Notes: generated by a model not told the origin, from the sequence alone. 47,104 nucleotides of DNA from a virus (IMGVR_UViG_3300029787_000089:1-47104); one strand, 5' to 3'; shown: positions 18,746 to 39,924, numbered from the stretch's first letter. Program-made: numbers and translations.

Positions 18746-19431
18746 TATTCCTCCTCCTGCTTCTTCAGTTTAACTATACGAGGATACTGATCTATCCTGT
18801 AACCTTCAGTATAAAAAGTCTTGGTGTCTTGGTTCTCCATTGTATCAGCAAAGAGATAAATTTTCAAGTGTTTAAACTTCATGCTTTTCTCAGCCAACAT
18901 CTGAAGCCAATCGTCAGGAGAGAAGACAGAGATGTGAGCATTCCTCCCATCAGGTAGAATCTTCAAAGCTTCAAAGCAAGCTACGTTCAGGAAGACCATC
19001 TTCTTTGCATACGAAAAAATTTCTTCTACTACCCAACCCAAGTCTTCTTCTGCGATATGTTCAAGAACATCTGTACATATGACAGCATCTTTCTTATGTA
19101 TGGGAAGTTTGCTGTGCTTTTCATAGCCGGGATCAAAGAGTTCACACTCGTCCAACTCCCAATACTCAGGAAGGGGGCAGTCGATTTCATCAGTAATCTC
19201 TGAGAACTTATCCGTGTAAAGCACTGCCTTACCGCAACCGTAATCAAGAACAGTCTTGCAGTTATTGTTTTGTAGATATAATTTTATGAGGTCTACAAAC
19301 TTTAGAAGGCTTCGCCCATTGAACATGCCCTCTCCCTGATCATGCTTCTCCTCATACATCTTGACAAGATTAACATAATCATCAGAGGGGTTATGTCTAC
19401 TATTAGTATTATCTACATTAATATCAGCCAT
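18745..19431 (-). CDS. SAM-dependent class I methyltransferase
   Basis: 228 aa. Motif I is VLDYGCGKAVLYTDKF (residues about 60-75), and a later acidic/hydrophobic strand is AVICTDVLEHIAEEDLGWVV. This is the class I Rossmann pattern of the Methyltransf_11/23 groups. Substrate unknown. It overlaps the next gene by 8 nt, and that gene also contains a methyltransferase-like and glycan-type domain, so a role in glycan or surface modification is likelier than DNA methylation. Confidence 0.75.
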   Translation of the reverse strand: MADINVDNTNSRHNPSDDYVNLVKMYEEKHDQGEGMFNGRSLLKFVDLIKLYLQNNNCKTVLDYGCGKAVLYTDKFSEITDEIDCPLPEYWELDECELFDPGYEKHSKLPIHKKDAVICTDVLEHIAEEDLGWVVEEIFSYAKKMVFLNVACFEALKILPDGRNAHISVFSPDDWLQMLAEKSMKFKHLKIYLFADTMENQDTKTFYTEGYRIDQYPRIVKLKKQEEE

Positions 19432-21799: not shown

Positions 21800-22559
21800 A
21801 GGGATTGACAAGTCCTTTTCCGGCAAGGTAGGTATAATCTCCATTCCATTCGGCAGCGTATCTTCCGTCAATATCTCTTCCGCATTTCCATTCTCTGAAC
21901 CACGGTCCTCCTGTAGTGAAATGTACATTCTTTGCTTCTACCTCCTCCGGTGAATGCCCGTCAAGCCAGTTCCATTCCTGATGTATGCTACCAATGTCGC
22001 CTTCTTTATCAGGCAACCACTGAAAGCCATGAAGCCAAGAGCCTGTCTGGGTGTTTACTTCTAGAGGGGTTAGCCTCTTGTTAAGTTCGTGTCCACAGTT
22101 CCAAAGAATAAGACTTGACCAGTTCTTTCTGCGATAGTGTTCTTGTTTCTTTCCATCCATCTTGTATTCTTCAGTGGGTTCATACTGATGCTTAACACAA
22201 TACAGTGGGTAGTAGTCCATGTTATATTCTTCAAACAACTCATTGATGTCAGTGCGAAGGTACATGTCGCAGTCCATGTATAATGCCCAGCCCTGATACA
22301 TATTCAAGGCAGGAACAAGGAAACGTGTGAAGCTAAAGTCTGTGGAGAAGGGCTTGCCATCTATGTCATCAATCATCTGCCCGTCTTTAACGCTGTGCTT
22401 GCGGTTGTACAATCCCATGCGCTCTACAACATCTTTGCGAATCGGTTTGACATCCACATTCTCAACGGCAATACGTTCAATCGTAAACTTTAATACTTCA
22501 TAGGCTACATCTTCTCTTGGATCGTAACCAATATAAACTGTGTTGGGTGACTTTCTCAT
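21789..22559 (-). CDS. Glycosyltransferase with DxD motif (GT8-like)
   Basis: 256 aa from the ATG at 22559, which has a good Shine-Dalgarno (AGGAGATACA). An upstream start at 22607 lies inside the terminator hairpin and is rejected. The first strand is VYIGYDPREDVAYEVLKF. The catalytic metal motif is in WALYMDCDMYLRTDINELF (DCD), and the end has HFTTGGPWF, giving a GT-A fold. It probably transfers a sugar to a virion or host component together with the next two genes. Its 3' end overlaps the multidomain gene by 11 nt. Confidence 0.75.
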   Translation of the reverse strand: MRKSPNTVYIGYDPREDVAYEVLKFTIERIAVENVDVKPIRKDVVERMGLYNRKHSVKDGQMIDDIDGKPFSTDFSFTRFLVPALNMYQGWALYMDCDMYLRTDINELFEEYNMDYYPLYCVKHQYEPTEEYKMDGKKQEHYRRKNWSSLILWNCGHELNKRLTPLEVNTQTGSWLHGFQWLPDKEGDIGSIHQEWNWLDGHSPEEVEAKNVHFTTGGPWFREWKCGRDIDGRYAAEWNGDYTYLAGKGLVNPYEI

Positions 22560-29394: not shown

Positions 29395-29857
29395 TTGTCA
29401 TATCCATTAAGTATGCATCTTCTACGGGAATGTGAAAGAATTTTTCTCCCTTTCTTATCTTGTAGTTAGAGGCTTCCTTAACCTCGCAGTCCAGCAATGT
29501 GTTACCATCTACGTGCCACGCTCTTGTGCAGTCATGGTTGAAGACTACAAAAGTAAGAAGATCATTATCACATTCTTTCTTCCACTTGTCAAGAAGTCTT
29601 TGCTTGCGGTGAGGGATGCGTAACTCTTTCCAACTGTCGGGCCACTCGTTACCCTTCCAAGAATACTTCACCTCCACTTCATAGAGATGTCTGGGAAGGT
29701 CTGGTCCTACAGTTGAAACAATATCAAAGTAAGTTGTTTCATTGGTATCAATGTTAATATGATCATGTTCTTTTAACCAAGATACCATAGCTTCTTTAGC
29801 TTCTCTATCCGCTTTCTCATAGAGATTACGATCAAATCTTTTTCTAACCTCACTCAT
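29378..29857 (-). CDS. Putative PD-(D/E)XK nuclease-like protein
   Basis: 159 aa from ATG at 29857, overlapping the primase-helicase stop as ATGAGTGA. The block YFDIVSTVG...HLYEVEVKYSW gives D-x(n)-E-x-K, the arrangement of PD-(D/E)XK nucleases. The rest (ELRIPHRKQRLLDKWKKE, FVVFNHDCTRAWHV) matches proteins found beside phage replication genes. The place between primase-helicase and polymerase fits a replication or Holliday-junction nuclease such as T7 endonuclease I, but identity to it is not shown. Confidence 0.55.
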   Translation of the reverse strand: MSEVRKRFDRNLYEKADREAKEAMVSWLKEHDHINIDTNETTYFDIVSTVGPDLPRHLYEVEVKYSWKGNEWPDSWKELRIPHRKQRLLDKWKKECDNDLLTFVVFNHDCTRAWHVDGNTLLDCEVKEASNYKIRKGEKFFHIPVEDAYLMDMTNESSS

Positions 29858-31472
29858 TATCTTCCTCCACGAAGGGGTTATCAATCTGTGTCATACGTCC
29901 TGTATCACCATCATAGTGAAGGTGACAAGCTATACCAGTATCTCCGGTGTACCTGTTCTTTAAGATACGGACAGAGGTGGTGTTCGCTTCGATGGGATCG
30001 TCTGCCTGTTGGTTACGCTCCAATGCAATCACGGCATCAGACAGGTGAGCAATAGAGGCAGAGCCACGTAGGTGTGACAAAGTAACCTCACGTCCATTCT
30101 CATGTCCGTTATCGCCGGATGGCCTACGCAGATGGCTGACCAGAAGCAGGGCAATGCCTGTCTCCTCAACAAGAGAGCGAAGCTTGGTCATCAGAATGTC
30201 AATGGACTTGCGTTCATCTCCGTTGTCCTCCTGACCAGAGACAAGGATAGACAGGTGATCAAGAAAGACCCACTTGCAATTAAGAGCCTTTGCCATGTAC
30301 CTGACACGTCCAAGAATCTCGTCGTTGTCCATGCTGCCAAAGTGATCGAAGGCAAAGAACCTGCCAGAGTCAATCGTCTTGGCTTGCCAATCATCCAACT
30401 GTTCCTGCGTGTACTGTTTGCGAATCTCCTTAATGTATAGTCGGGCATTGGCCTCGACACTCATAAGATTGAAGGCAGTCTGCTTCGTGTTCTCTTCCAT
30501 AGCAAGAACGCCGATGTTGTCTTCGGTATTGTGCATGATATGATACATTAGTTCACGCATGATACTTGACTTGCCCATGCCAGCACCGCTGGTAAACGTG
30601 ACAAGTTCTCCGGTACGCATACCATAAGTCTTATCGTTCATACCGGACCACGGATAGGGACAAGTCTCGTTGTGTGTTTCATCGTACAGGCTGCGGCCAA
30701 GATCAGCAAGGTTGATGATACCTGCTGGTGTGTAGGTACGTGCGCTCCACCATGCCTGAGTAAACTTTTCACGCTGCCCCGTCTTCAGATACTCGTTGGC
30801 ATCCTTCAGTTCAAGTTCCATAATCTTACACTTGTTAGGCTCAAACAGTTTAGCAACCTCTTGCGCTGCATCTTTGCCCTGCTGGTCATTGTCAAAGCAG
30901 AGGACAACGGTATCAAACTTGTTTAGATACTCCAACGATTGCTGGCAGTTCTTAACGGCAGACTGTGCGCCATTCTTGATAGAAACTGAAGGCCACTTCG
31001 ATCCCATCAGTTCAAAGGCACTCATGGCATCCAGTTCACCCTCACAAATAGTAATAAACTTTCCTGTCTGACCAAAGATATTCTGACCAAACAAACCGCA
31101 CTGAGAGAGGTTGCCTTCAGACCAGAACTGCTTGTCGCTGGTTCGACGGAACTTCGATGCAACATGATTGCCCTTCTGATCATAGTACCTATACATGTGC
31201 TTGTCTATCATAGTACCGTTCTTGGTAACATACACTCCATACTTCTTACAGGTATCCAAGCTGATCTTTCGATCAGGAATTGCTGAGAAAATAAAAGAGG
31301 ATGGGTTTTCATCGTGCATTTTAACGACCTGTTTTGGTTGGCTATTCATTCTTTCTCCGTTTCTGTAAGGCTTGGTTTCATCACAACTAAAACATTTGGT
31401 TCCCCACTCGTAGTATGCCAGTGCATCTGACGAACCACAGTCGGGACAGGGCTGGTGTGTTTTAAGTTCCAT
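29850..31472 (-). CDS. Primase-helicase (T7 gp4-like)
   Basis: 540 aa from the ATG at 31472, which has GGAG 6 nt upstream; an ATG at 31484 lies just behind a hairpin and is the alternative. Zinc motif: C9-PD-C12 and C27-FS-C30. Toprim motifs: TICEGELDAMSAFELMG and VVLCFDNDQQGKDAAQ. The helicase has Walker A TSGAGMGKSS, Walker B WVFLDHLSIL, and SHLRRPSG, a RecA-type motif of the DnaB/gp4 class. It unwinds the fork and makes primers. Confidence 0.95.
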   Translation of the reverse strand: MELKTHQPCPDCGSSDALAYYEWGTKCFSCDETKPYRNGERMNSQPKQVVKMHDENPSSFIFSAIPDRKISLDTCKKYGVYVTKNGTMIDKHMYRYYDQKGNHVASKFRRTSDKQFWSEGNLSQCGLFGQNIFGQTGKFITICEGELDAMSAFELMGSKWPSVSIKNGAQSAVKNCQQSLEYLNKFDTVVLCFDNDQQGKDAAQEVAKLFEPNKCKIMELELKDANEYLKTGQREKFTQAWWSARTYTPAGIINLADLGRSLYDETHNETCPYPWSGMNDKTYGMRTGELVTFTSGAGMGKSSIMRELMYHIMHNTEDNIGVLAMEENTKQTAFNLMSVEANARLYIKEIRKQYTQEQLDDWQAKTIDSGRFFAFDHFGSMDNDEILGRVRYMAKALNCKWVFLDHLSILVSGQEDNGDERKSIDILMTKLRSLVEETGIALLLVSHLRRPSGDNGHENGREVTLSHLRGSASIAHLSDAVIALERNQQADDPIEANTTSVRILKNRYTGDTGIACHLHYDGDTGRMTQIDNPFVEEDNE

Positions 31473-31485
31473 AAACTTCTCCATA

Positions 31486-31537
31486 TTAATTGAGCCTTAG
31501 TAGTTTCGTAGAAACTCTACTACTAAGACTCAATTAA
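31486..31537 (-). ncRNA. Early-transcript hairpin, copy 1 (variant core)
   Basis: As - strand RNA: outer stem TTAATTGAG/CTCAATTAA, one U-G wobble, then CTTAGTA/TACTAAG, a GTAGA bulge on the 5' side, inner stem GTTTC/GAAAC and a short loop. The inner stem differs from the other copies (GTATC/GATAC) by a compensated A-U to U-A change, which supports this fold. It lies between the 105-aa gene and the primase-helicase start. Confidence 0.8.
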
Positions 31538-31539
31538 GT

Positions 31540-31857
31540 TTACCATTTACCTTTGCTGTGTTTATGTAGTTCAGAAGATATTTCTTTTCGTTGTGCAACT
31601 AACTCCCTCTCCAGTGATATTAATGTTTCGATTTTATCCACCCTCTCAAGACCACGCCATGCTGCCTTGAAGGATGTTTCAATCTTGCCTCGTGTCTTTG
31701 GTTTGTATACTTCAATAAGAACGTCCATGTCTCTATCCCTTTTGGATTTTATAAACTCCTCTTGCAGTTCTTCTGGTAAGATGCCGAATGAGTCCGGTTC
31801 TGTTTCGCAGTTCGTCTTCTGCTTCTTTCTTCGTGCGAAAATTCTGAACAACCACAT
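31540..31857 (-). CDS. Hypothetical protein, basic and helical
   Basis: 105 aa from the ATG at 31857, preceded by AAGGAG at 7 nt. It starts MWLFRIFARRKKQK and continues with charged helices (FIKSKRDRDMDVLIEVYKP and ERELVAQRKEISSELHKHSK). The N-terminus could lie at a membrane surface. No family recognised. Located between thyX and primase-helicase. Confidence 0.6.
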   Translation of the reverse strand: MWLFRIFARRKKQKTNCETEPDSFGILPEELQEEFIKSKRDRDMDVLIEVYKPKTRGKIETSFKAAWRGLERVDKIETLISLERELVAQRKEISSELHKHSKGKW

Positions 31858-31878
31858 CACCAAACTCCTTCTTTAAGA

Positions 31879-32508
31879 TTAACTTCCACATAATGCACTC
31901 CACGACACAGGAAAAAGTTCCTTCATATGAGTATCAATATCTTTTGCAATAGCTCTAGTCTCTAGCTGTGCGTCCTTGCTGCTGCGTAGAGCAACAACTC
32001 TGGAGAAGGCCATAAGTGTACCAGACCAGTACCATTCTGTCAATAGACTTTGTGGTAGTATTGCTCTGGCCTGTTCTGCACACACCCCTGATTCAAGCAT
32101 GGCTTTGTAAGCATCAGCGCAGTGACGCTCTGCATCAGAAAACATATGATCCATCACAGTTTGCGATGCCACTTTCTTTCTGAGTGATCCTTGCTTGACA
32201 TCATCCGCCCCCTGCCGCCAGTAGTCAGGCTTCCAGAACTCCGGGTCAGTCTTGACATAGCGACGGCTTACCTCATTCCAGACAAGACCTATCTGATGTT
32301 TCATCAGTTGTCGTGCCACAAAGATCGGAGCCTTGATCCTGAACTGTGCAGAGGCATGGCCGAAAGGTGTCCAGTGATTATGCTTTGCCAGATACTTTAT
32401 CAGTTTGGTATCTCCGTCTGAGAGTTCTTTACTTTCCTTGTTAAAGCTTACTCTTGCGGCGTTAACAACAGACAGATCACTACCCATATGATCAATCAAT
32501 TCAACAGT
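31879..32508 (-). CDS. thyX: Flavin-dependent thymidylate synthase ThyX
   Basis: 209 aa from ATG at 32508, overlapping the previous stop (TGATGAC). Conserved parts: SVVNAARVSFNKESKEL, HNHWTPFGHASAQFRIKAPI and RQLMKHQIGLVWNEVSRRY. The usual RHRxxxxxxxS signature is changed to KHQ-type with one extra residue before NEVSRRY; this variant is, as far as I know, seen in phage ThyX. It makes dTMP from dUMP with methylenetetrahydrofolate and FAD/NADPH. Together with ribonucleotide reductase it boosts dNTP supply. Confidence 0.9.
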   Translation of the reverse strand, partial: TVELIDHMGSDLSVVNAARVSFNKESKELSDGDTKLIKYLAKHNHWTPFGHASAQFRIKAPIFVARQLMKHQIGLVWNEVSRRYVKTDPEFWKPDYWRQGADDVKQGSLRKKVASQTVMDHMFSDAERHCADAYKAMLESGVCAEQARAILPQSLLTEWYWSGTLMAFSRVVALRSSKDAQLETRAIAKDIDTHMKELFPVSWSALCGS

Positions 32509-32686
32509 CATCAAAACTATCTTCCCATAAATCATGTACAAAAGAAACTTTATCTTCCATAATATTATCTGCTTCTTTCTTGGCTAGTTTCTTAGCTTCT
32601 TTATACTCATAACCATCATCAACATACTCCCTGATAAGGTCACGCATTAATCCGCTACGTTCTTTTTGCCATAGATTTTTAGCCAT
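32501..32686 (-). CDS. Small hypothetical protein, charged helical
   Basis: 61 aa. The sequence LIREYVDDGYEYKEAKKLAK is a charged helix and the C-terminus is VHDLWEDSFDDC. It overlaps the ThyX start by 8 nt and begins just after the stop of the upstream small gene. Related short proteins occur in other phages' early regions; function unknown. Confidence 0.65.
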   Translation of the reverse strand: MAKNLWQKERSGLMRDLIREYVDDGYEYKEAKKLAKKEADNIMEDKVSFVHDLWEDSFDDC

Positions 32687-32687
32687 C

Positions 32688-32858
32688 TCACTCTAAGTCC
32701 TCTAAGTCTTTGAAAAACTCTTCTCTATCTGTGGCACTGTTAACATTGTATCCTGAGTCTTTCATTAACTGCCACACATCTGTGGAAAATCCAAGACTTT
32801 TTCTCAGTATATCTTCTTTCTGTAGGCGATGCCAATCAAAGTCGTAAACTTTTGTCAT
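32688..32858 (-). CDS. Small acidic hypothetical protein
   Basis: 56 aa: starts MTKVYDFDWHRLQKED and ends DREEFFKDLEDLE. The frame is closed by TGA 1 nt before the next ATG (TGAGATG) and its start lies inside the upstream coiled-coil gene. Tight coupling on both sides and a plausible composition support a real gene. No family recognised. Confidence 0.6.
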   Translation of the reverse strand: MTKVYDFDWHRLQKEDILRKSLGFSTDVWQLMKDSGYNVNSATDREEFFKDLEDLE

Positions 32859-33018
32859 CGTGTTCCACCCATTTAGTATTTGCCTCTGCTTGTTTTAACT
32901 GTGCTACTTCTTCTCTCAGTTCCTTAATAGTATTCTCTTGTTCTTTCACTCTAGCTTTGAGTAGTTTAACATGAGTGTTAAGCGTTTCCCAAGCCGACTG
33001 TAACTTTTTATCTGACAC
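32836..33018 (-). CDS. Small coiled-coil protein
   Basis: 60 aa from a GTG start at 33018 with AAAGGAG at a good distance. Nearly the whole sequence is one heptad-rich helix (VKLLKARVKEQENTIKELRE and EVAQLKQAEANTKW). Its 3' end overlaps the next gene by 23 nt. Function unknown. Confidence 0.6.
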   Translation of the reverse strand: MSDKKLQSAWETLNTHVKLLKARVKEQENTIKELREEVAQLKQAEANTKWVEHDDKSLRL

Positions 33019-33030
33019 AGTATACTCCTT

Positions 33031-33525
33031 TTAGTTACGGGTGTCAACGTAAAAGATGTGGCTCCCGACCTGACCAAGCACCATGAACTCCTCGTCCATT
33101 GACCAGTAGGGTGTGACATAGGCAGCATGATAGTGCGTGGCACCACCTGTCTGACTGAGTATCGCACCCTGCAAAGCAAGTTCTGCTGCGCTGACAGACT
33201 CCTGATACGCATCAACATTAGCTATAGTTTCAGGCTTACCGTCACACCAGTAGGAGAACTGGCACTTGTTTCGTATTGGTTTACCCTTCCACTTCTTACT
33301 CTGATGGACAACATCACAGATGCTATCTGGATAGCGATCCGACTCCACCCTCGCAAGGACAACATTAGCTACAGCAAGCTGTGCAATGAAAGGTTCAGAC
33401 CGTGCTTCAAAGTATACTGCTTCAGCAAGACATGACAAGTTGTCTGCTCTTAATATCTGCGATGTAAAGAGAGACAGTAGTACAAAGAATATAAAATTAA
33501 GAATAATAATTTTAAAATAGTTCAT
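33031..33525 (-). CDS. Secreted cell-wall hydrolase, SleB/Hydrolase_2 family
   Basis: 164 aa. An N-terminal signal peptide or anchor (IIILNFIFFVLLSLFTSQIL) precedes the hydrolase domain. Domain motifs: LAEAVYFEARSEP with the catalytic-type Glu, AVANVVLARVESDRYPDSIC, CQFSYWCDG, and ATHYHAAYVTPYW. Family members cleave peptidoglycan glycan strands. This is a second murein enzyme besides the late M15 peptidase, but it is in the early block and carries its own export signal, so it may act in superinfection control or lysis without a holin. Confidence 0.85.
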   Translation of the reverse strand: MNYFKIIILNFIFFVLLSLFTSQILRADNLSCLAEAVYFEARSEPFIAQLAVANVVLARVESDRYPDSICDVVHQSKKWKGKPIRNKCQFSYWCDGKPETIANVDAYQESVSAAELALQGAILSQTGGATHYHAAYVTPYWSMDEEFMVLGQVGSHIFYVDTRN

Positions 33526-33719
33526 TGCATTCTCTCAATCTTAATACCAAATGGGAAGCCACTTTGAAGTTCCCTTATACCATGACACATAAGATATGCG
33601 GCAGCTTCTTCGTATGTTGGAAAGGTCTGGATTTTTTCATCCTCTTCAGAGATCATTGCGTCAACACTATCAATGTCAGTCACTCCGGTGTCGTCCACTT
33701 GTGTTATTATATAATCCAT
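33522..33719 (-). CDS. Small acidic hypothetical protein
   Basis: 65 aa: begins MDYIITQVDDTGVTDIDSVD and ends GFPFGIKIERMQ; a middle part, FPTYEEAAAYLMCHGIRE, looks like a small alpha/beta domain. It overlaps the SleB start (ATGA) and starts one base after the upstream stop. No function known. Confidence 0.65.
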   Translation of the reverse strand: MDYIITQVDDTGVTDIDSVDAMISEEDEKIQTFPTYEEAAAYLMCHGIRELQSGFPFGIKIERMQ

Positions 33720-33862
33720 TATCTTCCTTGTCCTCTATATTTTTTCCAGTTAAGTCTCTTGTGTTTATTTTTGGGACGGGATAAGTGTCCCGCCCCTATT
33801 GATGTACGCTTCTTGATCCGACGCTCTGCCGGGTCGTACTTGTTGTCAGTCTTCTTTGCCAT
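33719..33862 (-). CDS. Very basic small protein
   Basis: 47 aa. It starts MAKKTDNKYDPAERRIKKRT and ends SRPKNKHKRLNWKKYRGQGR. High Lys/Arg content and the strongly patterned tail suggest nucleic acid binding. The start overlaps the previous stop (TAATGG). A GC-rich hairpin (GGGAC/GTCCC) lies within its codons. Similar short basic proteins occur in marine phage early regions; the role is unknown. Confidence 0.65.
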   Translation of the reverse strand: MAKKTDNKYDPAERRIKKRTSIGAGHLSRPKNKHKRLNWKKYRGQGR

Positions 33863-34101
33863 TATGAAATCCACCACTCCCAAGAAAACATTTCAGGTGC
33901 TTTCTTTTTGGGTGCTTTCTTAGCAGCAGCAGGGCGTGACTTGACAGCCTTGCCCTTCTTGGTCTTTGTTTCTATCATCTTGTCAACAACGCTCAGAGCT
34001 TCTTTTACATTTGCCCATTCGACGCCACTGCGAAACAGCCTGTTCAGGACTTCTTCTTCCAAGATGTATTTAATTTTCTTCAGATTTTGTAGGTCAGTCA
34101 C
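33862..34101 (-). CDS. Small protein with Lys/Ala/Pro-rich tail
   Basis: 79 aa. The N-terminal half is helical (LKKIKYILEEEVLNRLFRSG). Residues about 46-70 are a histone-like KAVKSRPAAAKKAPKKKAPE tail, ending in EMFSWEWWIS. The tail suggests DNA or RNA contact. It overlaps the DUF932 gene's stop by 4 nt. No family recognised. Confidence 0.65.
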   Translation of the reverse strand: MTDLQNLKKIKYILEEEVLNRLFRSGVEWANVKEALSVVDKMIETKTKKGKAVKSRPAAAKKAPKKKAPEMFSWEWWIS

Positions 34102-34982
34102 GCTGCTTCCTCCAATTCTTTCCAGTGAGTTGAGTCCATCATCTTCCGTACCTTGTCTTCACGGATGACCCGTGTGTTGGGCTTTGGCACATGGGTAGAC
34201 CATGACGTAGCTGCCTGATACGCAGTCCAGAGAGTACCTTCCGTGCGTTCTCCGTACTTCTCATAGTTACCTTGCCCAATCAAGTGACGGTTCTCTTCGT
34301 CAAATGTTTTCATCAGGTTGGACAGCATCACCTTGTTAGGCACCTGTGCTTTGGTCACGTTATCAAGACGCTTTGCCAGTGTACGGCTAAACAAATTGAT
34401 AGCCTGATCTCTGGACACAGGCGTTTGATACCAGCGGTGCATCTTGTTTATTCCATCGTTGGAGATATAGTCTGATGCTGCCCTGATCTTACTTGCAAAG
34501 CTAGGCACAGAGAAGTTCTTGGAGTGACGACCATACACATACGCCAGCTTGTTACCATCAACCAGAGTATTATAACATGCGGAACGGAAGTATCCCATCA
34601 TGCCGTTGTTAGCCCATGTCCTGTTGTGGCTGGTACGGAACTTGAACTGTGGTGTGACCGTATCATTCTTACCATCTATGGTTGCAGCTTCAGAGTTGAA
34701 CTTGGCAGTAAGTTCTAGCTGTTCTCCATGACCAATCACATTGGTCTGGAACTCGGCCCCATCAAGATCAATACCTGACATACTGATCGCCTCTTCAAGA
34801 TTCTCCACGATATCAAGATATTGTACAGGCTCATAGCTATCAGACACAATAGCTATTGGTTCTCCGCTGTCAGTGCGGCGTAGACCCACGCCCAGTGAGG
34901 GATCAATCCTCCCTCTGGCACCTGTAAAGGGGGCAAGAGAAAACTTCTCCACATTAAAGTTAAGTACATCATGGTTAAACAT
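34098..34982 (-). CDS. DUF932 phage/plasmid-like protein
   Basis: 294 aa. Conserved blocks: VGLRRTDSGEPIAIVSDSYE, PVQYLDIVENLEEAISMSG, RTSHNRTWANNGMMGYFRS and ACYNTLVDGNKLAYVYGRHS. These match the DUF932 family (TIGR03299-like), common in phages and plasmids, whose biochemical role is still unknown. It is the largest gene within the array of small early genes, which suggests an early host-takeover or replication-associated role. Confidence 0.8.
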   Translation of the reverse strand: MFNHDVLNFNVEKFSLAPFTGARGRIDPSLGVGLRRTDSGEPIAIVSDSYEPVQYLDIVENLEEAISMSGIDLDGAEFQTNVIGHGEQLELTAKFNSEAATIDGKNDTVTPQFKFRTSHNRTWANNGMMGYFRSACYNTLVDGNKLAYVYGRHSKNFSVPSFASKIRAASDYISNDGINKMHRWYQTPVSRDQAINLFSRTLAKRLDNVTKAQVPNKVMLSNLMKTFDEENRHLIGQGNYEKYGERTEGTLWTAYQAATSWSTHVPKPNTRVIREDKVRKMMDSTHWKELEEAA

Positions 34983-35136
34983 TTTGGTTCTCTTTCATCT
35001 TTAGGTTGAAACAAATTCGTTCTAGTTGTTGTATACACTGCGACACTTTGTCGCCATTAGTCATAGTTACTCTACCATTCAACTGAAGTTGGCTTAGTAT
35101 TTCCAGTGTCTCCTCTACTGCTTCAATAGTGTTCAT
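34975..35136 (-). CDS. Small helical hypothetical protein
   Basis: 53 aa: begins MNTIEAVEETLEILSQLQLN and ends ERICFNLKMKENQNV. It overlaps DUF932 by 8 nt and the upstream gene by 14 nt. Its codons include the palindrome GCGACA-N3-TGTCGC at 35040-35054, which recurs in non-coding form at 37748-37762. Confidence 0.6.
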   Translation of the reverse strand: MNTIEAVEETLEILSQLQLNGRVTMTNGDKVSQCIQQLERICFNLKMKENQNV

Positions 35137-35341
35137 CGCCCCAATCCCTGTAACCTTCTTGCACAGAGAGAAGCTCGTGTTCTAGCCAGCCATTGAGTTC
35201 TTCAATATCAATTTCTTCTGGCTTTGTATCGAAGGCAATAAGTTCCATGTACTCCTCCACCATTGGTCGGCACCATTCATCACCGCCATAGCGAAGAAAC
35301 TTCTGCACATCTTCGATGTCTTTAAACTCAGGAATATTCAC
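35123..35341 (-). CDS. Small acidic hypothetical protein
   Basis: 72 aa: starts MNIPEFKDIEDVQKFLRYGG and ends VQEGYRDWGDEHY; strongly acidic (EEYMELIAFDTKPEEIDIEE). An acidic, compact early protein could be a DNA mimic or inhibitor of a host enzyme, but nothing in the sequence proves it. It begins 1 nt after the upstream stop. Confidence 0.6.
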   Translation of the reverse strand: MNIPEFKDIEDVQKFLRYGGDEWCRPMVEEYMELIAFDTKPEEIDIEELNGWLEHELLSVQEGYRDWGDEHY

Positions 35342-35342
35342 G

Positions 35343-35558
35343 TTACTCTCCTTTTATTTGGATATCTTTTAATGTGTACTCTGCAAGTATACCATTAAAC
35401 GTGTTGGAAATCAAGCACAATCCGTTCAGTACGGACGGTGCATTAGTCATAGTAAAAACCATAGCCGCCATCAAAGACTGCTCGGCTATTTCTAGGTCGT
35501 CCTTGCCCTCCTGTTGTAGCAGTGTCTGTTCGTTGTAGACCTGATCGAATACTTCCAT
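35343..35558 (-). CDS. Small hypothetical protein
   Basis: 71 aa: MEVFDQVYNEQTLLQQEGKD followed by a helical middle (LMAAMVFTMTNAPSVLNGLC). Shine-Dalgarno GAGGAG lies 7 nt upstream. A competing frame beginning at 35595 through the same DNA was rejected. A possible extended -10 promoter (TGATATAAT) lies just upstream. Confidence 0.6.
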   Translation of the reverse strand: MEVFDQVYNEQTLLQQEGKDDLEIAEQSLMAAMVFTMTNAPSVLNGLCLISNTFNGILAEYTLKDIQIKGE

Positions 35559-35572
35559 TTTTCTGCTCCTCT

Positions 35573-35581
35573 ATTATATCA
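35573..35581 (-). promoter_or_regulatory. Possible extended -10 promoter
   Basis: On the - strand TGATATAAT is a full extended -10 element (TGn followed by TATAAT), 15 nt before the start of the 71-aa gene. No good -35 is visible. It may be an internal promoter of the early operon. Confidence 0.35.
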
Positions 35582-35591
35582 TACCATGCGT

Positions 35592-35723
35592 TCATTCGTC
35601 TTCAATCTTCGGTTTAACATCCTTCTTCTTATTGGGAAGGATGCGGTTACGGTACAGGTATTGTTCCAATACTTTAGCGGACGGATTTCTCCTCACTCCA
35701 TGTCCACGGTTGGACTTCCCCAC
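35592..35723 (-). CDS. Very small basic protein (GTG start)
   Basis: 43 aa from GTG at 35723: MGKSNRGHGVRRNPSAKVLE, then QYLYRNRILPNKKKD and a polar end. It lies partly inside the 3' end of the 62-aa gene in another frame. The 'RRNP..k.LE.YL.RNr..PNKKK' style looks like a conserved early phage micro-protein and not a chance frame. The start codon is the best fit and not proven. Confidence 0.5.
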   Translation of the reverse strand: MGKSNRGHGVRRNPSAKVLEQYLYRNRILPNKKKDVKPKIEDE

Positions 35724-35881
35724 AGAACTTTTATATTTTTCTTTTCCTTTTCTTGCCATTGTTCACATCCTTTCACGTATGCTTCATAGTTTGCATCACG
35801 TTGTTCTCTGTTATACCACCACTTAGGCATCACATTATAGGACAACTGTTGCAGTTCGTCCCACTCCTGTTTAGATAACAT
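35693..35881 (-). CDS. Small hypothetical protein
   Basis: 62 aa: MLSKQEWDELQQLSYNVMPK followed by WWYNREQRDANYEAYVKGCE. Rich in W, Y and Q; helical. It overlaps the upstream gene's stop by 11 nt. No known family. Confidence 0.6.
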   Translation of the reverse strand: MLSKQEWDELQQLSYNVMPKWWYNREQRDANYEAYVKGCEQWQEKEKKNIKVLWGSPTVDME

Positions 35882-36086
35882 AGACCTGATCCCTCTTTAG
35901 CCATTCAAGTTGCATCATAGCTATGTCATAAGCCTGTGCTGGCGTCAACTCTGTCAGAGAATATATCGTGTACATAAGACCAGCCTTTTCGCCTGTAGTC
36001 TTGATCTTTTTACGTCGATTATAATCCCACGATATCTTCCAGTTATCGCCACCAAGTTCTACCTCTACGAAGTCAATCGTTGTCAT
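35871..36086 (-). CDS. Small hypothetical protein
   Basis: 71 aa from the ATG at 36086 (MTTIDFVEVELGGDNWKISW). A longer version from 36140 would overlap the upstream gene by 68 nt and is not favoured. C-terminal LTPAQAYDIAMMQLEWLKRD is helical. The 'veleg.n..i.wdy....' start suggests a small beta sheet. Function unknown. Confidence 0.6.
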   Translation of the reverse strand: MTTIDFVEVELGGDNWKISWDYNRRKKIKTTGEKAGLMYTIYSLTELTPAQAYDIAMMQLEWLKRDQVYVI

Positions 36087-36252
36087 GCTCCACCTCCAGA
36101 TTAGGTACAAAATCTTTATCTGTAAACAACTGTAATTCAAATTTTTTGTTATCTCTATCTGTAACAGTCACGGTTACAGTTGCGAAAGTACTAAAGCTGC
36201 TATCCTGCTTTACTTTGATATTGTTTACGTTGTGTATTCTGAGTCCGTTCAT
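36073..36252 (-). CDS. Small beta-rich hypothetical protein
   Basis: 59 aa from the ATG at 36252 in a TAATG overlap, with GGAG upstream. It is a short beta-type sequence (FATVTVTVTDRDNKKFELQL) with an acidic end. It shares its fold style with the next upstream protein at 36394. Function unknown. Confidence 0.6.
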   Translation of the reverse strand: MNGLRIHNVNNIKVKQDSSFSTFATVTVTVTDRDNKKFELQLFTDKDFVPNLEVEHDND

Positions 36253-36401
36253 TAGTTCATCTCCAGCCATTCTGATTCAGTTCTACGTGCAGCTTCTGCG
36301 TAGGTTTCATTGCAGCCTTTCGGCCACCCATCCAACTCCAGATACTCCACCCACATGTCAAAGATATTCTCTTTGAGCATTTCGTTTTCATGGTTACTCA
36401 T
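36252..36401 (-). CDS. Very small acidic protein
   Basis: 49 aa: begins MSNHENEMLKENIFDMWVEY and ends RRTESEWLEMN. Coupled on both sides: the stop forms TAATG with the next start and the start overlaps the upstream stop by 8 nt. The sequence is helical and acidic. No family recognised. Confidence 0.6.
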   Translation of the reverse strand: MSNHENEMLKENIFDMWVEYLELDGWPKGCNETYAEAARRTESEWLEMN

Positions 36402-36615
36402 TTATCTTTACCTCTGCTTCGGTTTCGATCCACACTTTAGCGCCACAACTCAGTGGCTTGTCAGGACTATATACTATTTTACACGGTCCGTCAACATAAA
36501 CTTCGTGAGCATAGTTATTATCTTTGTATGTCTTCACGGTTATCACTGGCTCACGTTCGCCACTCTTAGCGTTACTCTTGATAACGTGCTGATTTATATG
36601 AATAACTTTTTTCAT
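36394..36615 (-). CDS. Small beta-rich hypothetical protein
   Basis: 73 aa: MKKVIHINQHVIKSNAKSGE, then EPVITVKTYKDNNYAHEVYV and a C-terminal VWIETEAEVKINE. A strong Shine-Dalgarno (TTGGAGG) precedes it, directly behind the tRNA-like RNA. Short beta protein of unknown function, perhaps related to the phage 'DUF' beta-sandwich micro-proteins. Confidence 0.65.
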   Translation of the reverse strand: MKKVIHINQHVIKSNAKSGEREPVITVKTYKDNNYAHEVYVDGPCKIVYSPDKPLSCGAKVWIETEAEVKINE

Positions 36616-36633
36616 ACGACCTCCAATAAATTA

Positions 36634-36777
36634 GGTGGGGGTGAAGGGAATCGAACCCTTCGTTAGGTAGCTGTACCTACCTTGCTGAGTTTGGCCGACA
36701 TTAGTACAGTTCTTTGAAGCAACATTGCTCCTTAATGTACTGGCTTCTTCACAACATTCACTCAAACCAGAACCCCC
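36634..36777 (-). ncRNA. tRNA-like structured RNA (T-arm and acceptor stem, non-canonical body)
   Basis: As - strand RNA the 3' part is a perfect tRNA end: T-stem AAGGG/CCCTT, T-loop TTCGATT, acceptor strand CACCCCC, discriminator A and CC (then T, not A). The 5' end GGGGGT pairs with it. The body is about 50 nt too long for a tRNA. It holds an arm CTGGTTT/AAGCCAG (one U-G), a stem ACATTA/TAATGT enclosing GGAGCA/TGCTTC (one G-U), and a hairpin AGGTAG/CTACCT. Wobbles occur only in the - strand reading. It starts 5 nt after hairpin copy 2. It could be a reduced tmRNA-like molecule, an intron-containing tRNA or a tRNA mimic. Confidence 0.65.
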
Positions 36778-36781
36778 ATAT

Positions 36782-36834
36782 TTAATAGGCGTTATGTAGT
36801 ATCGTAAGATACTCTACTACATAACACCTATTAA
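36782..36834 (-). ncRNA. Early-transcript hairpin, copy 2
   Basis: As - strand RNA: TTAATAGG/CCTATTAA, one U-G wobble, GTTATGTA/TACATAAC, GTAGA bulge, inner stem GTATC/GATAC, loop TTAC. It begins right after the stop of the Cys-rich gene and ends 5 nt before the tRNA-like RNA. Confidence 0.85.
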
Positions 36835-36835
36835 G

Positions 36836-37504
36836 TCAAGCGGCAATCGCTGCTGCCTTCTTCTTACTTGTACCGTGGGCGGGGAAGCCCACTACTACAT
36901 TGCGATCCCACTTCTCACATAGCATACATGATGCACATGATACGTCATCTTTGTATGTAGCAGGACATACCACAACTTTCCTGCCCTTCGGCGTCACGGT
37001 ATTTGTTGTCTGCTCAATCGGCAATACAGTAGCCACCGGAGCTATGTCAAGATCGCATAGCTGGTCTGCATGTTCAAGATTGTTAGCCGATACATTAACA
37101 GTGAAGCCTAAGTGGTTCATCATATTGACAGTTATGGCGTTCTGGAAATTGTCCAATACGTCATAGTGTGTGTATGTAAACCCACGCTTGCCCTCATTAG
37201 CTTTGGCAAGATCGACACATTTGGTACTGTCAAGGTCTTGTGTGTCACCCGGCAGATCACCAGCTTGATTGTGTCGCCACTTGCTACCAGCAGGTAGGTC
37301 TTTGATCTTGTCAATGAACGTAGACCAATCGTCACCACGCTTACCTTCGGTGACTTTGAGCCAGTGCAGCTTCAGCGGTCCACTCTCTGCATAGCATCCG
37401 TTATCTCTGAACGGACACGCAGTGGGACATGTTGTCGCAGTGCTAGTCGTCACCGCCATCTTGCCTACCTTGGCATTCTTTGATTTAGGCGTAATGTGAA
37501 ACAT
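36836..37504 (-). CDS. Cysteine-rich phage protein, unknown function
   Basis: 222 aa. Cysteines cluster as CPTACPFRDNGCYAESG near residues 26-42 and as VVVCPATYKDDVSCASCMLC near 185-205, suggesting Zn or Fe-S binding. Middle: WRHNQAGDLPGDTQDLDSTK and GFTYTHYDVLDN, resembling a TIM-barrel-like pattern seen in uncharacterised phage proteins. The end is Lys/Ala rich. Because a NifU-like protein is also encoded, an Fe-S enzyme is conceivable; not shown. Confidence 0.65.
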   Translation of the reverse strand: MFHITPKSKNAKVGKMAVTTSTATTCPTACPFRDNGCYAESGPLKLHWLKVTEGKRGDDWSTFIDKIKDLPAGSKWRHNQAGDLPGDTQDLDSTKCVDLAKANEGKRGFTYTHYDVLDNFQNAITVNMMNHLGFTVNVSANNLEHADQLCDLDIAPVATVLPIEQTTNTVTPKGRKVVVCPATYKDDVSCASCMLCEKWDRNVVVGFPAHGTSKKKAAAIAA

Positions 37505-37709
37505 TTATTTCCTCCAGATAATCTTCGGTTTCAAAGTAACGCACATCGGCGTCGGTGGTAAAGGCATCTTTATTTTTAATGCCTTCCGCAATCCGCCTGT
37601 TAAGTTCGTTGCGCTGTTCCACGGTCAGTTCATCCAACCATGACTTGTACTGAGTACCTAAAACTCTCCATATTTTGTACTCAATATCTGAAATATAATC
37701 CATAGACAT
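37485..37709 (-). CDS. Small hypothetical protein
   Basis: 74 aa from the ATG at 37709 with GGAG 7 nt upstream. A longer start at 37754 would run through the nested hairpin at 37735-37778. Contains DIEYKIWRVLGTQYKSWLDE and ELTVEQRNELNRRIAEG; helical. It overlaps the Cys-rich gene by 20 nt. Confidence 0.6.
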   Translation of the reverse strand: MSMDYISDIEYKIWRVLGTQYKSWLDELTVEQRNELNRRIAEGIKNKDAFTTDADVRYFETEDYLEEINVSHYA

Positions 37710-37734
37710 AGGTTTTCTCCATAGTTTGCACATA

Positions 37735-37778
37735 AGATAGGGAGTCTGCGACATAGTGTCGCCACAAGCACCCTATCT
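37735..37778 (-). ncRNA. Nested intergenic hairpin (second type)
   Basis: Outer stem AGATAGGG/CCCTATCT (8 bp) encloses a perfect inner stem GCGACA/TGTCGC with a 3-nt loop; internal loops are asymmetric (8 and 5 nt). It lies between two small genes just upstream of a Shine-Dalgarno. The inner palindrome with flanks (CTGCGACA-N3-TGTCGCCA) recurs at 35038-35056. Confidence 0.65.
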
Positions 37779-37787
37779 CTGTATAAA

Positions 37788-38063
37788 CTAAGCCGCTTCG
37801 GACAGCAGTTCTGCTATGGCCCGTGAGGTATTTTCCTTAGACTTCAGCACCTTGATAAGCTGCCGTGCAATGACACGCTGATGGTCACGCATCCGTCCAC
37901 CGTCTACTGACTTGCGGTGGCGTGCCAGCTTTGCTACGGCCCGGTCAAACTTACCCCAATTGCCGATGGTAACATTTTCTTCGATAAGCTTTTCAAGCTT
38001 GGGATCGGCATAGAGATTGTATTTGCCACGGCGTTCGGTGTACTGAATTGCAGGAGTTGTCAT
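37788..38063 (-). CDS. Small basic hypothetical protein
   Basis: 91 aa: MTTPAIQYTERRGKYNLYAD, then RAVAKLARHRKSVDGGRMRD and RAIAELLSEAA. Basic helical middle part, possibly DNA or RNA binding. It lies between two hairpins. No family recognised. Confidence 0.6.
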   Translation of the reverse strand: MTTPAIQYTERRGKYNLYADPKLEKLIEENVTIGNWGKFDRAVAKLARHRKSVDGGRMRDHQRVIARQLIKVLKSKENTSRAIAELLSEAA

Positions 38064-38095
38064 AGTATATATCTTTCTATTGAGTTAGGAATAAT

Positions 38096-38121
38096 GCAAG
38101 GCTTATAGTGAGGTGCCTTGC
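38096..38121 (-). repeat. Small intergenic hairpin
   Basis: GCAAGGC/GCCTTGC (7 bp) with a 12-nt loop in the gap between the 98-aa and 91-aa genes. The loop on the - strand contains CTCACTATA, which resembles part of a T7 promoter by chance. Confidence 0.45.
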
Positions 38122-38137
38122 CAACCCCCTGTAAGAG

Positions 38138-38434
38138 CTACGCTCCGACCATTGCCGGATCGACAGCCATAGCCTCATCTTCTTTGACAGCTTTGGCTAT
38201 GATCTTGTTAGCCCGTTTGTGGGCCGCTTCCAGCTTTTCCTCTACAGCCTTCGGCTTAGTGCTGGTAGCTGCTACAGTTTCCGGCAGCTTGTCATCATTG
38301 CGGATGACTTTGAAGTTCCCGTTTGGGTGTACAACCCTGATCGGGACGCCAGAGTTAGCAGCCTTCGCAAAAAGTTCCCGGCCCTTCGCAAGTTCAACCC
38401 ACTTGCCTGATACAAAAGTTTCCATGATCGCCAT
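38138..38434 (-). CDS. Small Lys/Ala-rich hypothetical protein
   Basis: 98 aa from the ATG at 38434, which has GGAG at 6 nt; an ATG at 38473 directly behind hairpin copy 3 would add 13 residues. Includes GVPIRVVHPNGNFKVIRNDD (beta) and a charged helical C-terminus (VEEKLEAAHKRANKIIAKAV). Unknown function. Confidence 0.6.
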   Translation of the reverse strand: MAIMETFVSGKWVELAKGRELFAKAANSGVPIRVVHPNGNFKVIRNDDKLPETVAATSTKPKAVEEKLEAAHKRANKIIAKAVKEDEAMAVDPAMVGA

Positions 38435-38476
38435 GATATTCTCCATTGTTGGCGGTTTCGGCAAAATTGCCATAGT

Positions 38477-38529
38477 TTAATTAACGTCTTACAGTATCGT
38501 AAGATACTCTACTGTAAGACATTAATTAA
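38477..38529 (-). ncRNA. Early-transcript hairpin, copy 3
   Basis: As - strand RNA: TTAATTAA/TTAATTAA, one U-G wobble, GTCTTACA/TGTAAGAC, GTAGA bulge, inner stem GTATC/GATAC, loop TTAC. The outer stem differs completely from the other copies but is fully paired. It lies between the two-TM gene and the 98-aa gene. Confidence 0.85.
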
Positions 38530-38530
38530 G

Positions 38531-38695
38531 TTACTCGCAGCCTTCGGTAAGCCAAGCACATAAGGCTATAAACACAAAAGGCAATGCCCAAAGTATCGGG
38601 AATGTGTCCCAGCCTTTGAACATGAACCCGTACATGCCCACCAGCACGGCGGGAAACGTCAATAATAAAGATACGTTTCTGATCTTCTCAAACAT
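38531..38695 (-). CDS. Small two-TM membrane protein
   Basis: 54 aa from ATG at 38695 (AGGA upstream; overlaps the previous stop by 8 nt). Two hydrophobic helices: VSLLLTFPAVLVGMYGFMF and FPILWALPFVFIALCAWL. It could alter the host membrane early in infection. No family recognised. Confidence 0.6.
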   Translation of the reverse strand: MFEKIRNVSLLLTFPAVLVGMYGFMFKGWDTFPILWALPFVFIALCAWLTEGCE

Positions 38696-38897
38696 ACCAA
38701 TCCTCATCTTCAAATGGTTGCGCTTCCAGAAACTTATCAGTTTCTTCCTGTATGTTACGATACAGCTTTTCAGCGTGAAGTTTGAATTGTTCTTCTTCTT
38801 GAAAGAACCCGCATATCGTCAGGTGATCTTGATCCTGATTGACGGGATGGTTTTGCAATTCAAACAAGTTATACTTGTCTAGCATTTCTCTGAGCAT
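38688..38897 (-). CDS. Small acidic hypothetical protein
   Basis: 69 aa: MLREMLDKYNLFELQNHPVN followed by FFQEEEQFKLHAEKLYRNIQ and an acidic end (PFEDEDWYV). The start is in a TAATG overlap with the upstream gene. Function unknown. Confidence 0.6.
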   Translation of the reverse strand: MLREMLDKYNLFELQNHPVNQDQDHLTICGFFQEEEQFKLHAEKLYRNIQEETDKFLEAQPFEDEDWYV

Positions 38898-39181
38898 TAG
38901 CTAACCCTCAATAATTGAAACAAAGTTTTACCAACGTTAGTTGGTATTTGTTGCGACACTCCGCAGAACAATTGGCTTATGTTGCAATACTGTTTTGGTA
39001 TGGCAGACCACACTTGCAAAACAGCTTGCGCTTGCGACCAGCTTTGATAGGTCGTCGAGCCAGTGGGTACGCCCCTCACCAAGCAAACTTGAGCGGAGAT
39101 GTACGCCTTGATGCCGCTTTTAGGGCAAACCAACGCAATAGTGGTTATACCACTACTTTGGAAGACTTGGATCGTCGCCAT
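38897..39181 (-). CDS. Small hypothetical protein behind structured RNA
   Basis: 94 aa with a strong Shine-Dalgarno (GGAGG, 5 nt upstream). Composition is unlike its neighbours: S, Q, V and four Cys, few charges (SYQSWSQ-type segment YQSWSQAQAVLQVWSAIPKQ). The start follows the closed RNA element at 39211-39336 by about 30 nt. No family recognised. Confidence 0.5.
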   Translation of the reverse strand: MATIQVFQSSGITTIALVCPKSGIKAYISAQVCLVRGVPTGSTTYQSWSQAQAVLQVWSAIPKQYCNISQLFCGVSQQIPTNVGKTLFQLLRVS

Positions 39182-39210
39182 CAGAACCTCCGGTTATTGG
39201 TGAAAATTTA

Positions 39211-39336
39211 ATTAAGCTATCCGACTTTGCCATGTCCCGATTTAGCGATGCTGCATCGTATGCATCCAACGTAGCATCCGGGCTGCCTCCGTAAAGGCAT
39301 GAGGGAATCGAACCCAAACCCATCGAATAGCTTAAT
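39211..39336 (-). ncRNA. Closed structured RNA with T-arm-like hairpin
   Basis: As - strand RNA the ends pair over 14 bp (ATTAAGCTATTCGA with TCGGATAGCTTAAT, one U-G wobble that would be C-A on the other strand). Inside, in order: GGGTTCGATTCCC (a tRNA T-loop on a 3-bp stem), TGCCT/AGGCA with a 6-nt loop, and CCCG plus GATGCT paired with AGCATC and CGGG. The order T-arm, acceptor-like hairpin, D-side, closed by a long stem, resembles a circularly permuted tRNA-like domain. No CCA is present, so this reading is speculative. Confidence 0.5.
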
Positions 39337-39351
39337 CAAAGTTTCACTAAA

Positions 39352-39404
39352 CTAATTAACCCTCCATAGTATCGTAAGATACTCTACTATGGAGGGCTAA
39401 TTAG
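39352..39404 (-). ncRNA. Early-transcript hairpin, copy 4
   Basis: As - strand RNA: CTAATTAG/TTAATTAG base (one G-U wobble), CCCTCCATA/TATGGAGGG, GTAGA bulge, inner stem GTATC/GATAC, loop TTAC. It lies behind the 64-aa gene, before the closed RNA element. Confidence 0.85.
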
Positions 39405-39413
39405 GTGTGTCGA

Positions 39414-39608
39414 TTATTTTCCGCAATATCCGGGGAGGAGCAGAACGACAACTTCCTCAAGACACGCCTCATCAGCGTCTAGCGTGCCAAGATATTCCCC
39501 GCCCTCACCGTGCAGGTCAATGGCTCCGCCACACACAGATGCGTGAACTTGGAAAGCTCCATCAAGAAACAAATCAATCTCCGATTGAAGTACGGTAATG
39601 TTGGTCAT
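39414..39608 (-). CDS. First leftward gene: small acidic protein
   Basis: 64 aa: MTNITVLQSEIDLFLDGAFQ, then VCGGAIDLHGEGGEYLGTLD and DADEACLEEVVVLLLPGYCG. GGAG upstream. It is the most promoter-proximal gene I can support in the leftward block and lies between hairpin copies 4 and 5. Acidic; function unknown, possibly an early host-directed protein. Confidence 0.6.
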   Translation of the reverse strand: MTNITVLQSEIDLFLDGAFQVHASVCGGAIDLHGEGGEYLGTLDADEACLEEVVVLLLPGYCGK

Positions 39609-39624
39609 TGGTCAATCTCCAAAG

Positions 39625-39678
39625 TTTAATTAACGCCCTGTAGTATCGTAAGATACTCTACTACAGGGCTTAAATTAA
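39625..39678 (-). ncRNA. Early-transcript hairpin, copy 5
   Basis: As - strand RNA: AT-rich base (TTAATTTAA with TTAATTAA, imperfect), GCCCTGTA/TACAGGGC, GTAGA bulge, inner stem GTATC/GATAC, loop TTAC. It lies about 10 nt before the Shine-Dalgarno of the 64-aa gene. Confidence 0.85.
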
Positions 39679-39798
39679 CCTCATCATTTGCCGTTGTCAA
39701 GCTTCGTCAAATGCCAAAGCATTTCATCGTGCGCATGACAGTCTTGCAAAGACTGCATAGCGTGTAAAAGCTCTGCTTTGTCAAAGGCTTATCGAGGT

Positions 39799-39829
39799 TT
39801 CTAGAGTTACTACGAAGTAGTAGAAAGCC
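39799..39829 (+). repeat. Palindrome with asymmetric bulge, opposite orientation
   Basis: GG-TTTCTA pairs with TAGAAA-G-CC; inside is CTAC-GAA-GTAG, with a bulge GAGTTA on the 5' side when read on the + strand. The layout resembles the early hairpin family but is inverted relative to it and has a different core. Confidence 0.4.
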
Positions 39830-39870
39830 GACAACAAGACATCCAATGGATGAAATTGTCAAAGCTACTA

Positions 39871-39924
39871 CCAATTACTCTCCTCCGTAGTAACATTCTG
39901 TTCCTACTACGGAGAGATAATTGG
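39871..39924 (-). ncRNA. Early-transcript hairpin, copy 6 (diverged)
   Basis: As - strand RNA: CCAATTA/TAATTGG, then TCCGTA/TACGGA with a small 3' side bulge, a GTAG-type bulge on the 5' side, inner AACA/TGTT and loop GAA. The architecture is that of the other copies but the inner hairpin sequence is different. Confidence 0.6.

Follow-up and report, generated by a model that had tools for sequence, protein, structure and literature searches.

Intergenic RNA hairpins with a constant tip and covarying stems in the early transcripts of marine phages

A hairpin family between early genes

Why should the leftward early transcript of one viral contig (IMGVR_UViG_3300029787_000089) carry what appears to be the same hairpin several times, between different genes? 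The initial annotation of this contig, whose whole analysed length of 47,104 nt is referred to below as the window, described a family of six copies, four of them with a common core. The core, GTATCGTAAGATACTCTAC, has exactly four exact matches in the window (at 36799, 38494, 39369 and 39643), compared with 0.01 expected occurrences of this 19-nt sequence in the shuffled window. A covariance model built from other copies picks out five sites of the window, each of them on the minus strand (31489, 36785, 38480, 39355 and 39629); the sixth proposed copy (39871-39924) does not score in the family covariance-model search at E <= 0.1, which leaves five members. All five lie outside the genes of the leftward transcript, between early genes as annotated, and the minus-strand folds of the four core copies and of the copy at 31486 have z values of -7 to -9 relative to shuffles. 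The features are:

36782-36834, minus strand: hairpin copy 1; 8 bp, a U.G, 8 bp, then the tip GTA-GA-GTA-TCT-TAC-GA-TAC; directly after the stop of the gene at 36836-37504 (minus strand)
38477-38529, minus strand: hairpin copy 2; copy-1 tip on an unrelated stem with one U.G; about 50 nt upstream of the likely start of the downstream gene (Shine-Dalgarno GGAG, ATGGCGATC)
39352-39404, minus strand: hairpin copy 3; copy-1 tip, one G.U; 9 nt past the gene at 39414-39608 (minus strand)
39626-39678, minus strand: hairpin copy 4; copy-1 tip, stem mismatches A.G and U.U; Shine-Dalgarno TTTGGAG and ATG of the gene at 39414-39608 directly 3'
31486-31537, minus strand: hairpin copy 5; variant tip GUAGAGUUUCUACGAAAC, one U.G, shorter loop, GTTTC/GAAAC; Shine-Dalgarno ATGGAG and ATG of the primase-helicase gene (start 31472) directly 3'
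29850-31472, minus strand: primase-helicase gene (PHROG 239), downstream of copy 5
39871-39924, minus strand: long hairpin ("copy 6") at the head of the early region; a non-member by the covariance model

In the four core copies the element measures 53 nt, with the core at its centre and 17 positions on each side; the tip is common to the copies and the stems are unrelated in sequence. The stems had been described as unrelated yet fully paired, with a single U.G or G.U in each of copies 1-4. One such pair is present in copies 1, 2 and 3, and also in copy 5, but copy 4 departs from the description with its A.G and U.U. The compensated inner-stem change of copy 5 (GTTTC/GAAAC) had been read correctly. 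Orthologues of the primase-helicase in other genomes also lie downstream of a family hairpin.

Two neighbouring sequences are recorded here as separate observations. Directly downstream of copy 1 is a 145-nt tRNA/tmRNA-like sequence (36633-36777, minus strand; 5' GGGGGUUCUGG, 3' GGUUCGAUUCC...ACCCCCACC) with a fold of -48 kcal/mol and a full-length, sub-threshold match to the Rfam tmRNA model (15.5 bits, E=0.005). It may be a tmRNA in reduced form or the captured end of a tRNA; four related loci gave zero Rfam matches for it. Downstream of copy 3 is a second T-arm-like sequence, GGGTTCGATTCCC (39303-39315, minus strand).

Fold of the element

Scans of contigs for the structure yielded further tips (GAGTTCTTACGA, AAGTTCTTACGA, GACTATCTTAGGA, GACTATAAGGA, GAACTTTAGTGA, GAACAGTAGTGA, GACTTCTTAGGA and GATTACTTAAGA). 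In the folds obtained for tip variants, a long helix leads to a 2x2 internal loop, GA/GA, above which 2-3 bp carry a short loop; one common tip class has AA/GA in place of GA/GA. Both pairs above the GA/GA loop are formed in 12 of 12 tip variants, with both sides changing (100% paired), and the closing pair under the loop is A-U or U-A without exception. The helix below the internal loop is sharply limited to 20 bp. At positions 11-12, an A-form turn down from the tip, it has a directional weak point, either G.U or an A of the 5' arm opposite a G of the 3' arm. Pairing is at background level from position 21, and positions 1-9 contain a single G.U among 152 unique copies; these profiles are affected by the structural scans, which demanded five Watson-Crick pairs beside the tip plus a minimum total and so selected positions 1-5 outright, a selection that the core-only set does not have. 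The tip is the most conserved part and the stems are variable. With flanks, the mean folding energy is -26 kcal/mol, and in the model helix, loop and mini-hairpin would together amount to about 24-25 stacked pairs.

The GUAGA bulge that had been proposed as the conserved feature does not hold up: in copy 1 the bulge model lies 5.2 kcal/mol above the predicted fold, and its inner helix is 63% paired across variants. A K-turn reading of the GA pairs was also discarded, since both arms are paired and no unpaired 3-nt bulge is left. The pattern GTAGAACN{2,4}AGTGATAC proved too loose for interpretation.

Other tips were seen on similar hairpins. A second class, with the constant tip ACTTA-GCTTTC-TTT-GAAAGC, a true 5' bulge and variable paired arms, occurs in 24 stretches (in L018, L023, L024, L029, L061, G001, G006 and G024), apparently about once per genome, close to where the hairpin array begins. 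Paired arms also flank a third kind of tip, GTAGTAAC-GAAG-TGTTAC, in G003 (L072, about 1783 and 2295), L047 and L053. The tip of copy 6 (GUAG..GUUAC) resembles a separate class found in G003, and copy 6 perhaps belongs to the third class. The tips of copy 5 and of the minority GTAAC..GTTAC class of G003 fold somewhat differently from the rest.

Covariation of the stems

An exact scan of IMG/VR viral contigs found the 19-nt core in 61 stretches, and almost all of the copies in these contigs have complementary arms that differ in sequence between copies. For the covariation analysis, 25 stem clusters were drawn from this core-only scan, so that structure was not selected for. In all 25, 7 or 8 of the 8 flanking positions are Watson-Crick paired, against 3.8 of 8 when arms are mixed between clusters, and the six pairs just outside the constant core are formed in every cluster with zero wobble. 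The covariation score is 0.557, compared with 0.168 for shuffled alignments (0 of 500 as high) and at most 0.178 for slid partners. Covariation in homologues, on which the initial annotation had staked its proposal, is thus present. At orthologous sites, defined by the same downstream gene family, the hairpin is kept while its arms have changed yet remain complementary. The hairpins are real, numerous and not due to chance, and the covariation of their arms requires selection for pairing.

Orientation and position relative to genes

PolA was identified in twelve whole records, and 48 of the 48 hairpins in these lie on its coding strand. Among unique copies, stem mismatches are G.U rather than A.C in a ratio of 40:8 (p=3e-6), and the bias persists when one copy per stem cluster is counted (18:4, p=0.004). 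Both results bear out the earlier view that the minus-strand, coding RNA is the conserved form. A start codon with a Shine-Dalgarno sequence follows the arm end by no more than 40 nt in 148 sense cases, against 9 antisense controls; the helix ends 0-10 nt before the Shine-Dalgarno sequence in many copies, and the upstream stop codon is mostly 0-15 nt ahead of the stem. The copies are restricted to the early operon rather than spread over the genome. That the element acts as a sense-strand RNA hairpin is well supported.

The hairpins also move between different neighbouring genes, in the manner of a linker: a single downstream gene family can be preceded by as many as 13 upstream families, and upstream families likewise vary in what follows them. 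They resemble intrinsic terminators and intercistronic stabilising hairpins in being stable and in lying between a stop codon and the next gene, but differ in their constant tip, fixed length and lack of a U-tract. TTTT follows within about 10 nt in 9 of 239 hairpins, while an SD-like sequence follows in 146 of 239; the hairpins are therefore not intrinsic terminators.

Occurrence in phages and cellular genomes

The window and nine other genomes (G001-G007, G023 and G024) form one clade by TerL, portal, PolA, primase-helicase and ribonucleotide reductase. A second lineage (G017, G018 and G020) has replication genes in common with Pelagibacter phage HTVC103P and with the window clade but is without the window's head genes. 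A further record, G019 (75.5 kb, 54% GC), has only head and other structural genes in common with the window clade and carries one clear family member with a GC-rich stem; it shares zero proteins with G017 at BLAST E<1e-3. No protein common to all hairpin lineages was found from shared gene content at BLAST sensitivity, which small divergent proteins may escape and for which some records are incomplete, and this favours a host reader.

A 201-aa protein (G004_32129_32734; G004 32129-32734, minus strand), which by eye looks like a helix-hairpin-helix DNA glycosylase and has homologues in L100-L150, lies downstream of a family hairpin and follows the hairpin in two otherwise unrelated phage lineages. 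It was considered as a cognate phage protein and rejected, being absent from many hairpin phages. An 834-aa protein of the window (19424-21928, minus strand), which matches no PHROG but has an MptE-like domain at 548-742, is present in 10 of 10 clade records. Outside the family, G017 (L308, 12986-13440) and G020 (L320) have further long intergenic hairpins with near-perfect pairing, which form a cluster; their tips include AAGCTCCATAGAGCTTC and ATGCCCGCCCCTC.

With up to 50 kb scanned per record, no family hairpin was detected in the cultured phages HTVC103P, HTVC023P, HTVC027P, CRP-804, CRP-901, CRP-902, DSL-LC04, seawater phage 023Pt_psg01 or the T7 early region. None of 84,980 bacterial and archaeal genomes contains the 19-nt core. 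With the AGTTC-type tip, just two true hairpins came up in bacteria, each lone and near-perfect with the tip GTGAGTTCTTACGAAC. One is in a Rhodospirillales single-cell genome (L329, about 5970-6015, minus strand), near PD-(D/E)XK and WYL genes, and the other is in a Planctomycetota bin (L338, about 2924-2969, minus strand), upstream of an aspartyl-protease-like gene. A search with model R1 under strict filters of 199 genomes from each of these two bacterial groups returned no further hairpins. In the window, none of 4227 Rfam models matched at the gathering score, a relaxed search gave only a chance-level miRNA match at copy 5. When one hairpin was compared with INPHARED by blastn, all matches were at chance level. 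No earlier description was found in the open-licence papers searched. This is a real, widely shared and apparently undescribed phage RNA element.

Comparison with described elements

The early polycistronic mRNA of phage T7 has five sites at which it is cut by RNase III (PMC4858673). The T7 sites R0.3 to R1.3 resemble the marine hairpins in that there are several per genome, in intergenic positions of an early polycistronic transcript, some 27-35 nt upstream of start codons and with roughly 20-25 interrupted base pairs. The marine hairpins are likewise sense-strand, intergenic, early and upstream of starts, and their 20-bp helix with GA/GA and 2-3 bp corresponds to about two helical turns of double-stranded RNA. 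In our folds, which use the cut positions of the T7 literature, R0.3, R0.5, R1 and R1.1 have an asymmetric internal loop in mid-helix, and R1.3 as folded here lacks it. In the marine hairpins the 2x2 loop is symmetric and lies close to the tip, mid-helix has no more than one weak pair, and an asymmetric loop holding a cut site there is absent. Their constant tip and variable stems are a further difference, and T7 scores nothing with the family model. By placement and length, the hairpins may work like the T7 intergenic processing hairpins, and to that extent the likeness drawn by the initial annotation stands; we make no claim to the T7 site family, because its defining internal-loop arrangement is absent and cleavage is only putative.

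The ESAS elements of cluster K mycobacteriophages are inverted repeats of about 17 bp that immediately precede the translation start in some genes; almost all point the same way, and no function is assigned to them (PMC3203893). Size, pre-start position and mostly single orientation are similar, but conservation is reversed: in ESAS the arms and the adjacent 13-bp SAS, GGGATAGGAGCCC, are conserved and the spacer varies, whereas in the marine family the spacer, here the tip, is conserved and the arms are unrelated between copies. REP palindromes have arms conserved within one genome; the window copies share only the tip.

Possible roles of the hairpin

We tentatively favour a role as RNase III-type processing hairpins that insulate neighbouring early genes, a reading that is plausible though short of probable. 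The element would act in cis within the early polycistronic mRNA, as part of the coding-strand transcript, where the segment from stop codon to Shine-Dalgarno sequence would fold into the 20-bp helix, the GA/GA (or AA/GA) loop and the mini-hairpin of 2-3 bp. A host endonuclease specific for double-stranded RNA, most likely RNase III, would bind this hairpin and cut the transcript. The 3' end of the upstream message would thereby be a structured one, and the downstream gene would gain a fresh 5' end just ahead of its ribosome-binding site. Neighbouring early genes could then be expressed and decay independently, and the tip, with the weak A.G or G.U that lies a helical turn further down, may set the register of cutting. 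A host enzyme of this kind would fit the placement, the constant length of two turns and the absence of a phage protein common to the lineages. Structure, covariation, length, placement and movement between genes are observed; the enzyme's identity, the cleavage and the effect on expression are what we infer.

Several features count against RNase III: (i) An exact 19-nt core across unrelated stems suggests a partner that reads sequence, and we know of no requirement of RNase III for so constant a tip. (ii) The near absence of G.U from the upper nine pairs (one in 152 copies) is stricter than expected. (iii) A long, near-perfect helix is normally cut on both strands, which would destroy the hairpin. 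(iv) The internal loop is near the tip, whereas in T7 it is in mid-helix.

A protein that reads the tip is the main rival to processing. It could be a dedicated factor, either a host protein that unrelated marine phages have co-opted or an unrecognised phage protein, for which the GA/GA-capped hairpin would serve as portable operon punctuation, dividing early operons into units under separate control; we regard this as possible but rather doubtful. Alternatively, a host or phage RNA-binding protein could use the GA/GA tip as an operator and repress, activate or coordinate early-gene translation. The conserved tip on variable stems, the invariable A-U or U-A pair below GA/GA, the weak A.G or G.U one helical turn under the tip and the many helices that end 0-10 nt before a Shine-Dalgarno sequence would all suit such an operator, which we nevertheless consider unlikely: at BLAST sensitivity the hairpin lineages do not all have any one phage protein in common, the helix leaves the Shine-Dalgarno sequence free and hence does not in itself occlude it, and a fixed 20-bp helix is needless for a small tip-binding protein.

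It is improbable that the hairpins are passive stabilisers, blocking exonucleases at the upstream 3' end and shielding the downstream 5' end without a specific reader. Their helices are very stable, and in most copies the stem begins within about 15 nt of a stop codon, as a stabiliser would require, but any stable hairpin would serve, which leaves the constant tip, the 20-bp length and the near absence of G.U from the upper half unexplained. Nor do we give much weight to an element of the DNA itself, namely a single-stranded or cruciform hairpin for replication, packaging or recombination, which seems very improbable. The palindromes are almost perfect, and the G.T-type mismatches on one strand only would also suit a single-stranded DNA hairpin; however, orientation matches transcription in 48 of 48 cases, position is tied to stop codons and Shine-Dalgarno sequences, and the copies are confined to the early operon instead of being spaced genome-wide. 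REP-like dispersed palindromes, mobile or selfish DNA without function for the phage, are scarcely credible despite the many copies per genome with a core in common, since the arms are unrelated among copies of one genome, orthologous positions retain the hairpin with changed but matching arms, and arm covariation requires selection for pairing.

Implications

In the open-licence papers searched, we found no RNA-level work on these phages. The hairpins are an RNA family supported by covariation and present in several uncultured marine phage lineages, and the family is not in Rfam. The element is short and modular. It provides a handle on how early gene expression is organised in uncultured marine phages, and on which host RNA enzyme these phages may use.
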